DNA of 64,000 nucleotides, taken from the NCBI RefSeq assembly GCF_900110555.1, contig NZ_FOEE01000007.1, forward strand, positions 1 through 64,000, given 5' to 3'. The position numbers were made by a program, and so were the translations under genes. Source of the DNA: Trujillonella endophytica (GTDB taxonomy: Bacteria; Actinomycetota; Actinomycetes; Mycobacteriales; Geodermatophilaceae). Position 1 is the stretch's first letter, and each line of letters opens with the position of its first letter. Below, piece by piece: positions 15,784 to 18,105 of the stretch. The notes beneath the pieces are model-generated. The model was not told the origin of the DNA and did no database searches. It was given only the letters and a program-made list of their open reading frames with translations.

Positions 15784-18105
15784 GTGGAGCCGCGGCCCGG
15801 CCCTGCCGATGGCCCTCTCGTGCACCGAACCGCCCAGGCCGCCCCCCCGGCCGCCGACGCCGCCCTCGACGCCGCCCTCGCCCCCGGCGGGGTGCGCAGC
15901 GTCTTCCAGCCGATCGTCGAGCTCGACACCGGCCGCGTCGTCGCCTACGAGGCCCTCGCCCGCGGACCGCTCGGGCCGCTGGAGCGCCCCGACGAGCTGT
16001 TCGCCGCCGCCCGCGTGGCCGGCCGGCTGGCGGAGCTGGACCAGCTCTGCCGGACCGCCGCCCTGAGCGGCGCCCTCGAGCACGGCCTGGTCGCGCCGCT
16101 GACCCTGTTCGTCAACGTGGAGCCCGAGGTGCTCGACCGCGCGCCGATGGAGACGCTGCTCGGGCTGGCCGAGGCCGCGCCGGACCGGTTGCGCGTCGTC
16201 CTGGAGATCACCGAGCGCGCCCTCGCCACGCGGCCGGCGGAGCTGCTGCGCACCGTGGAGCGGGTCCGGTCGGTCGGCTGGGGCGTGGCGGTGGACGACG
16301 TCGGCGCCGAGCCGATGTCGCTGGCCTTCATGCCGCTGCTGCATCCCGACGTCGTCAAGCTCGACCTGCGCCTGGTCCAGGAGCGCCCCGGACCGGACGT
16401 CGCCGAGATCATGAACGCGGTCAACGCCTACGCCGAGCGCACCGGAGCGGTCGTGCTCGCCGAGGGCATCGAGCACGAGGAACACCTGGACATGGCGCGC
16501 GGGCTGGGGGCCACCCTCGGGCAGGGCTGGTACTTCGGCCGCCCCGCCGACGGCCCGGCCCTCGACCGCGAGACCGCCGAGCTCGTCCTGCCCACGCGGG
16601 GCGGCGACGCCGTTGCGGAGCCGGCCTCGCCGTTCGCCTGCCTGCCCGACGGCGTCGCGCTGCGCTCGGCCCCCAAGGCGCTGCTCATCGAGCTGTCCAA
16701 GCAGCTGGAGCGCGAGGCCCTGCGGATGGGGCAGACCTGCGTGGTCACCGCGGCCTTCCAGGAGGCCCGCCACTTCACGCCGTCGACCACGCAGCGCTAC
16801 CGCGACCTGGTCGAGCGGACCGCGTTCGTCTGCGCCCTCGGCGAGGGCCTGCCCGAGGAGCCGCTGCCCGGCCTGCGCGGCGCCACCCTGGCCGCCGGCG
16901 ACCCGGTGCGCGGCGAGTGGGACGTCACCGTCCTCAGCCCGCACTTCGCCGCCGCGCTCCTGGCCCGTGACCTGGGCGACTCCGGCCCGGACGCGCAGCG
17001 CCGGTTCGAGTACGCGCTCACCTACGACCGGGAGACGGTCGTGCGGGCGACGGCGTCGCTGCTGGCCCGGGTCGCCCCGCACGTGGAGCACGCGGTGCCC
17101 GCGGACGCCCCGGCCCCGGCCGCCGGCGCCCCCCGCCCCGTCGCCGCCCCGCCCGTCGCGCCCGTCGGACCCGGCGGGGACGCCCTGCTGCTGAGCGCGC
17201 TGGCCGCCACCCCGAGCGGGGTCGCCGTCGCCGATCTGCGGCTGCCCGACCAGCCGCTGGTCTACGTCAACCCCGCGTTCGAGCGGCTCACCGGCCTGCC
17301 GCGCGAGGAGCTGCTGGGCCGCAACTGCCGCTTCCTGCAGGACCCCGACACCGACCCGGCCGCCGTCGCGCGCATCCGGGCCGCCGTCGCCGCCGGGGAG
17401 GAGTGCCGGGAGACCCTGCTCAACGTCCGCGGGCCCGACCGGACGCCGTGGTGGAACGAGCTGCACCTGGCCCCGGTCCGCGATGCCGACGGGACGGTGG
17501 TGCAGTACATCGGCGTCCAGGTCGACGTGACCGCGCGGGTCGAGGCCGAGCGGGCGCTGCTGCAGGAGCGCGACCGCACCCGGGTCGCGCTCGCGCGGAT
17601 CGAGGAGCTCGCCGCCACCGACCCGCTCACCGGCCTGGCCAACCGCCGCCGGCTGCAGGAGCAGGCGGAGACCGCGCTGTGGAACGCCCGGGCCTCCGGC
17701 GACGCCCTGGCCCTGCTCTTCCTCGACCTCGACGGCTTCAAGGCCGTCAACGACCGGCTGGGGCACGCCGCCGGCGACGAGCTGCTGAAGGAGGTCGCCG
17801 CCCGGCTGCGGCAGCGGCTGCGGCGGCGCGACCTGGTGGCCCGGCTGGGGGGCGACGAGTTCCTCGTGGCGCTGCCCGACCTGTCGAACGACGCCGGGTC
17901 CGGCAGCGCCGCCGCCGAGGCGGGGCGGGTGGCCGAGGACCTGCTCGCCGCGGTCCGCCGTCCGTTCGCGGTGCAGGGCACCACGGTGACGGTCGGGGCG
18001 AGCGTGGGGATCGCGGTGGCGCCGGAGGACGGCGACGACGTCGCGACGCTGCTGCACGTCGCCGACCTGCGGATGTACGAGGCGAAGGCCGCGCGCGTCC
18101 CCTGA
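15784..18105 (+). CDS. EAL-DICT-LOV-GGDEF c-di-GMP protein, likely blue-light controlled
   Basis: A 773-residue cytosolic protein with four modules. EAL (about 30-260) begins with QPIVELDTG and EAL at 56-58 and keeps the Asn, Glu, Asp-Asp, Lys, Glu and Gln positions (FVNVEP, LEITER, VDDVG, VKLD, AEGIE, GQGWYFGRP). Its loop 6 reads DDVGAEPMS rather than DDFGTGYSS. A DICT sensory domain follows (about 290-410). LOV (about 470-595) has the flavin-adduct motif GRNCRFLQ with Cys515, plus LLNVR, WWNELHL and IGVQVDVT. GGDEF is intact at 689-693, with an RxxD inhibitory site (RRRD) five residues upstream. It may make or break c-di-GMP in response to blue light. The GTG start is somewhat uncertain. 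Confidence 0.93.
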   Translation: MEPRPGPADGPLVHRTAQAAPPAADAALDAALAPGGVRSVFQPIVELDTGRVVAYEALARGPLGPLERPDELFAAARVAGRLAELDQLCRTAALSGALEHGLVAPLTLFVNVEPEVLDRAPMETLLGLAEAAPDRLRVVLEITERALATRPAELLRTVERVRSVGWGVAVDDVGAEPMSLAFMPLLHPDVVKLDLRLVQERPGPDVAEIMNAVNAYAERTGAVVLAEGIEHEEHLDMARGLGATLGQGWYFGRPADGPALDRETAELVLPTRGGDAVAEPASPFACLPDGVALRSAPKALLIELSKQLEREALRMGQTCVVTAAFQEARHFTPSTTQRYRDLVERTAFVCALGEGLPEEPLPGLRGATLAAGDPVRGEWDVTVLSPHFAAALLARDLGDSGPDAQRRFEYALTYDRETVVRATASLLARVAPHVEHAVPADAPAPAAGAPRPVAAPPVAPVGPGGDALLLSALAATPSGVAVADLRLPDQPLVYVNPAFERLTGLPREELLGRNCRFLQDPDTDPAAVARIRAAVAAGEECRETLLNVRGPDRTPWWNELHLAPVRDADGTVVQYIGVQVDVTARVEAERALLQERDRTRVALARIEELAATDPLTGLANRRRLQEQAETALWNARASGDALALLFLDLDGFKAVNDRLGHAAGDELLKEVAARLRQRLRRRDLVARLGGDEFLVALPDLSNDAGSGSAAAEAGRVAEDLLAAVRRPFAVQGTTVTVGASVGIAVAPEDGDDVATLLHVADLRMYEAKAARVP

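Follow-up and report, generated by a model that had tools for sequence, protein, structure and literature searches.

Can a single protein chain read both blue light and a DICT signal and switch between making and degrading c-di-GMP? A gene near the start of a contig of the soil actinobacterium Trujillonella endophytica raises this question, because the original prediction saw in it an EAL, a DICT, a LOV and a GGDEF domain, in that order. We analysed the gene within its window, the whole 64,000-nucleotide stretch of DNA, together with its relatives in other genomes. Translation of the window gives an open frame of 773 codons followed by a stop, and Pfam matches, each above its cut-off, place EAL at residues 27-254 (3e-39), DICT at 297-396, PAS_9 at 487-584 and GGDEF at 610-770 (2e-46), so the domain order is as predicted (Table 1). 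Among the best 25 NCBIfam families listed, TIGR00254, the GGDEF domain model, alone passes its cut-off. The start codon is uncertain: a clear Shine-Dalgarno sequence was not seen, and an alternative in-frame GTG lies at 15820. The genome has 21 EAL matches in 20 frames and 30 GGDEF matches; 16 proteins carry both domains and, judged by coordinates, EAL comes first only in this one, which makes the order real and unique among them. Its DICT domain is the sole DICT match in the genome.

Table 1 Features of the EAL-DICT-LOV-GGDEF gene (positions in the window) and of second genes downstream of it in five Blastococcus loci (positions in the locus named).
Feature	Position	Strand	Remark
EAL-DICT-LOV-GGDEF protein, 773 aa	15784..18105, stop included	+	open frame and Pfam domains
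EAL domain, residues 27-254	15862..16545	+	13/13 catalytic/metal positions kept
Variant EAL loop 6, DDVGAEPMSL, residues 171-180	16294..16323	+	
DICT, residues 282-432	16627..17079	+	predicted phospholipase-D-like fold without HKD motif
Predicted disordered Pro/Ala-rich DICT-LOV linker, residues 437-462	17092..17169	+	
LOV domain, residues 465-582	17176..17529	+	
LOV Cys515 codon, predicted flavin adduct site	17326..17328	+	
LOV-GGDEF linker helix, residues 583-612	17530..17619	+	Gln579-Asp613 = 35 residues
GGDEF domain, residues 610-770	17611..18093	+	
RxxD inhibitory-site motif, Arg680-Asp683	17821..17832	+	
GGDEF motif, residues 689-693	17848..17862	+	
Second downstream EAL-DICT-GGDEF genes	L069 10242-12143; L073 10015-12162; L076 10624-13098; L110 9201-11375; L122 9180-11354		

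The gene has close counterparts in the same surroundings elsewhere. A near relative, L047, lies in Blastococcus endophyticus; its best-matching segment reaches 91% with the EAL-DICT query. In the window the gene's upstream neighbour encodes an EamA-like transporter and pheST adjoins, both names being read from translations without family searches. We found pheS in 50 of the 80 named loci that hold a relative of the gene: Blastococcus (27/28), Geodermatophilus (14/14), Modestobacter (7/14), Goekera (1/1) and one Geodermatophilaceae isolate. It was present in none of the remaining named loci, some of whose contigs are short. The gene therefore occupies an old chromosomal site in much of the Geodermatophilaceae. 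About 16 kb away, a 16S rRNA gene on the minus strand has its 5' end at the edge of the window (positions 1-170), a possible reason for the breaks that several related contigs show at a similar distance from the gene.

The C-terminal half looks like a photoswitch. The PAS stretch can be assigned as LOV, since LOV proteins are frequent among its PDB relatives and it carries GRNCRFLQ at residues 512-519 along with Asn547, Asn558 and Gln579; the adduct Cys and the flavin-contacting Asn and Gln residues are thus all where they were said to be. It is very improbable that this LOV domain chiefly senses redox state through its flavin, or chiefly dimerises the protein, instead of sensing light: all eight LOV positions examined, Cys and Gln included, are kept in 99 of 100 aligned rows, and a redox-only flavin domain needs no Cys. 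Nothing specific speaks for a redox or dimerising role, and these organisms are not known to be phototrophs. The one LOV domain lacking Cys is in L124 (3221-5566, Kineococcus siccus), where GRSARHLD replaces GRNCRFLQ; this may be a light-blind relative. The GGDEF domain is intact and retains its RxxD site, again in keeping with the prediction, and at 162 bits it is the top scorer of the genome's 30 GGDEF matches. Besides the motif itself, it has the cyclase residues Asp648, Asn656 and Asp665, which we take to be, as in PleD, the metal Asp and the guanine-contacting Asn and Asp.

Counted from the LOV Gln to the Asp that opens GGDEF, 89 of 97 rows have a spacer of 35 residues, seven have 21 and one has 33, this last being L124, whose linker is also odd in composition. 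The alignment to PDB 8c05, presumably MsLadC, runs gap-free over this linker, and the spacing between the same anchors in 8c05 is also 35. AF2 models residues 583-610 as a single helix. For the LadC proteins, the accessible text of the source reports light activation beyond 10,000-fold in MsLadC and SfLadC, which have 35-residue linkers, and about 15-fold in AoLadC and DpLadC, which have 21-residue linkers (PMC10396304). Taken together, linker length, the gap-free alignment, the single helix and the pattern in L124 indicate that the cyclase of the present protein probably works and is gated by light.

The EAL domain is harder to read. It scores 138.7 bits, among the weakest EALs of the genome, yet it keeps every metal and catalytic position that had been claimed; the roles of these 13 positions, with Glu227 as the presumed base, are our assumption. 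Binding-only EALs such as LapD and FimX usually lose some catalytic residues. Loop 6 is altered, as predicted, although its length is unchanged. The usual loop, DFG(T/A)GYSS, is described in the accessible text of one source as essential for activity and dimer formation (PMC12943098), and DDVGAEPMSL departs from it. PDE activity may for that reason be low or absent, and we speak here of an EAL domain rather than of an established PDE.

What does not hold is the notion that loop 6 is a peculiarity of this protein. The lineage mostly reads DDVGA, followed by Asp or Glu, where Gly is usual, in 89/89 four-domain rows. Among the EAL-DICT proteins of the class that stand alone, ten carry loops such as DDVGVNPDSL and DDIGAHPDSL, and all ten keep 13/13 EAL residues. 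We read loop 6 for 15 of the genome's 19 other EAL proteins, and DDFG is kept in 14 of them. Decay of this one protein is rejected as the cause, given that DDVG or a near variant occurs in nearly the whole lineage, including stand-alone proteins with the full catalytic set. Because the variant is lineage-wide, these alignments mark it as an old lineage trait that neither proves nor excludes hydrolysis. The same facts bear on the second of two rival readings, in which EAL has lost hydrolysis and serves as a c-di-GMP receptor, the protein sensing c-di-GMP, light and a DICT ligand with the cyclase as its sole enzyme. A loop that is non-canonical throughout the lineage, in a genome whose other EALs keep DDFG, speaks for it, but retention of Glu227 with the other 12 positions and of the loop length speaks against, and we consider it quite unlikely. 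An EAL domain with an intact catalytic set and a fixed non-canonical loop 6 offers a test of whether hydrolysis requires that loop. Four divergent EAL-DICT proteins (L138, L145, L146 and L152) have lost several EAL catalytic residues and kept DICT.

DICT (PF10069) is matched at 45.2 bits, against a Pfam cut-off of 23.8, and the family matched 52/52 DICT stretches scanned. An AF2 model built from 52 DICT sequences is confident (pLDDT 91, pTM 0.83). In a Foldseek search of the PDB with this model, ranks 1-17 were all PLD-fold structures (E 1e-4 to 4e-2, TM 0.34-0.51), among them NucT, Zucchini, FAM83A, TrmB, PPK1 and NgoAVII R, whose membership of the PLD superfamily we assume; E fell below 0.001 in five only, and from rank 18 the matches were mostly unrelated and weak. 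VIA-align over the Foldseek candidates placed the TrmB sugar-binding domain first (PDB 2f5t, 3qph; Z 10.7, 3.5 Å over 122 residues, 11% identity), but TrmBL2, NucT and others lay no more than 1 Z unit lower, effectively a tie, and 50/50 entries listed were PLD-fold. With this method a top Z of 7-8 often arises where no clear match exists, a level that 10.7, backed by a uniform list, exceeds.

Sequence comparison gave no such link. The HxKxxxxD (HKD) motif is absent from DICT in 136 of 136 sequences. Set against 19 PLDc_2 domains picked for their HKD motif (one of 20 was dropped), DICT reached a probability of 0.5% in hhalign, with EAL, LOV and GGDEF controls at 0.1-0.3%. A Pfam scan of 52 DICT members at E up to 10 returned no PLD family, only DICT and four weak others: CHASE6_C (15/52 members, best 0.029), AAA_33, PGM1_C and DUF5560. 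The DICT profile found two chance-level matches among PDB sequences, and TrmB profiles gave partial matches in 4 of the 119 genomes searched across the phylum, too few for a comparison. A search of open-access literature found no paper tying DICT or TrmB to PLD. DICT is thus predicted to have a PLD-like fold with no sequence homology to PLD domains that these profiles detect. With HKD missing, PLD-type catalysis is unlikely; TrmB's PLD-like fold binds a ligand, and to expect the same of the modelled DICT domain is the natural inference.

A 2022 review, in its accessible part, lists DICT among putative sensory domains without discernible physiological purpose (PMC8846402), and a DICT gene was once noted beside a heliorhodopsin gene, with a DICT role in light responses predicted there (PMC8612252, likewise in its accessible part). 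Since DICT is kept both with and without LOV, a second signal is its more likely contribution. The confident TrmB/PLD-like model turns an orphan domain into a testable ligand-binding question, and no other side result of the analysis is as interesting as this lead on its fold.

We surveyed relatives with an EAL-DICT query, using the best 80 of 172 relatives in named genomes plus related genomes. The 128 DICT-bearing ORFs reduced to 112 after merging identical ones: 89 EAL-DICT-LOV-GGDEF (the window's own included), nine EAL-DICT-GGDEF, nine EAL-DICT (some truncated where the contig stops) and five EAL-DICT-LOV. The original prediction had proposed a search for the same domain order in related genomes, and many relatives have it; relatives occur in Geodermatophilaceae, Kineococcus, Quadrisphaera and Cellulomonas. 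Across the class, 47 of 394 genomes hold a relative of the DICT region; the 30 loci listed comprise 10 with four domains (two already counted, namely the window gene and one known locus), 15 with EAL-DICT alone, four with DICT and no detected EAL, and one cut at its start. On these domain counts EAL-DICT alone is the more widespread form and the wider core, to which LOV-GGDEF looks like a C-terminal addition, though a tree rooted on EAL-DICT cannot prove it. That tree was made by a quick method, has long deep branches, and covers rows at least 85% filled, leaving aside L001, L002, L042, L138, L145, L146 and L152. In it L121 (Streptomyces sp. NP160) clusters with Quadrisphaera, and its record name looks wrong; so does that of L120 (titled Candidatus Melainabacteria), which agrees in length and ORF with a contig of an actinobacterial genome.

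The three catalytic or sensory parts have fared differently. Of the 109 rows that have LOV or GGDEF, 107 retain all 13 EAL positions, and in the two exceptions, L020 and L021, the missing residues were found in another frame, which marks them as frameshifts. Frame breaks within the EAL region of L020, L021, L028 and L042 are either real pseudogenes or assembly errors. Against this constancy, and that of LOV, stand eight GGDEF positions changed in 26 of 105 rows. Mapped on the tree, intactness of the GGDEF motif requires a minimum of eight changes among 110 rows and LOV presence two, with GGDEF judged by its five-letter motif only and 20 rows with neither LOV nor GGDEF (of which contig ends truncate two) set aside. 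Some changes are mild, such as Phe693Leu alone in L121. Clear loss or decay is seen in a clade of 11 rows (eight named Blastococcus) with a degenerate motif (TRDSF and the like) and LOV kept, in a clade of eight rows without LOV (GATRF and the like), in L025, in L074 and in four Modestobacter-type rows with LOV whose GGDEF is gone. Proteins of this Modestobacter EAL-DICT-LOV type are found in L033-L035, L103 (7737-9836) and L104; that of L103 stops soon past the LOV linker helix, which it retains, where GGDEF would start.

Judged by conservation, EAL is the output that selection steadily maintains and the cyclase the one that can be dispensed with. As LOV outlives the cyclase, it probably acts on something else in GGDEF-decayed lineages, most simply EAL, unless the degenerate GGDEF is still regulatory. 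The LOV-less rows with GGDEF have a degenerate motif in 9/9 cases, but a link between LOV loss and GGDEF decay comes down to two independent pairs (sign test, median p 0.5) and is suggestive only. The LOV-less, GGDEF-dead and GGDEF-less relatives amount to a natural dissection of which output the photoreceptor drives. Separately, in five Blastococcus loci the gene is closely followed by another, for a LOV-less EAL-DICT-GGDEF protein whose GGDEF is degenerate and EAL intact (Table 1); this second product is a possible heterodimer partner.

How, then, might the chain work? The full-length AF2 model, a monomer with pTM 0.61, leaves the domain arrangement unsure. The DICT-LOV linker has pLDDT below 50 and spans 57-96 residues between anchors across rows, and a disordered segment of such variable length suggests two separately gated, tethered modules. 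We give about an even chance to a dual-input c-di-GMP turnover enzyme built in this way, its domains, residues, linker lengths and conservation being observed and its photochemistry, activities, DICT ligand and directions of effect inferred. The first module would be an actinobacterial EAL-DICT unit in which DICT, as a pseudo-phospholipase-D-fold ligand sensor, gates an EAL domain that hydrolyses, or at least binds, c-di-GMP. In the second, LadC-like module, blue light would form the Cys515-flavin adduct and act through a coiled coil of the 35-residue linker, so that paired GGDEFs make c-di-GMP, subject to c-di-GMP feedback at RxxD. Light would raise c-di-GMP, and the hydrolysis that counters it would be set by the DICT ligand.

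The main rival is one reciprocal switch, in which LOV (and DICT), acting via the dimer, push EAL one way and GGDEF the other. Persistence of LOV with GGDEF degenerate (11 rows) or deleted (four rows) points away from pure module separation and towards another output, as does the linker helix kept in L103; Synechococcus SL2, a LOV-GGDEF-EAL protein, has a blue-light-driven EAL according to the accessible text of PMC8846402. A disordered, length-variable linker, however, provides no rigid path for such coupling, and EAL is intact where LOV is missing, in the eight-row clade and in L025. We regard reciprocal control as unlikely in the present protein and return to the tethered modules. Of the switch first proposed, in which light and DICT shift one chain between making and degrading c-di-GMP, the LOV residues, the competent-looking GGDEF and the EAL residues all stand; equal outputs do not, given repeated decay of GGDEF, and so flexible a linker speaks against a single reciprocal switch, although LOV kept beside dead GGDEFs points the other way. 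More tentatively, and with the balance somewhat against it, DICT may be an HKD-less, TrmB-type PLD-fold pocket that gates a PDE with a private loop 6, tethered to a LadC-like cyclase; sister lineages would then have let the cyclase die and given their photoreceptor over to the PDE.

Among the open-access matches listed, read as titles and abstract openings, the four-domain combination was not found, which is weak evidence of absence; those listed included no LOV domain in these genera, and the open-access search found no biochemistry on any family member. EAL-first order was considered as a novelty and rejected, since an Azospirillum hybrid already has EAL before GGDEF, both conserved, with neither LOV nor DICT named in the accessible text (PMC5845226). 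Each domain, LOV-GGDEF-EAL proteins and the EAL-first order are thus already known; their combination with DICT is little studied. SL2 of Synechococcus elongatus likewise unites LOV, GGDEF and EAL in one chain for blue-light c-di-GMP turnover, but in the order LOV-GGDEF-EAL, with no DICT given in the accessible text and with PDE as its output (PMC8846402). Ten actinobacterial EAL-DICT proteins (L140-L144 and L147-L151) share the EAL-DICT unit, a DDVG or DDIG loop 6 and 13/13 EAL residues, and differ in having neither photoreceptor nor cyclase. Closest in the C-terminal half are the LadC blue-light cyclases such as MsLadC, whose LOV-linker-GGDEF build, 35- or 21-residue linkers and RxxD recur here; by our own residue mapping, Arg585 occupies the position where most LadCs have Arg and MsLadC has Gln122 (PMC10396304, accessible text). 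LadCs have no EAL or DICT, whereas some relatives of the present protein have GGDEF degenerate or lost. With EAL and DICT preceding LOV-GGDEF, we describe the protein as LadC-like in its predicted working and do not class it as a LadC.
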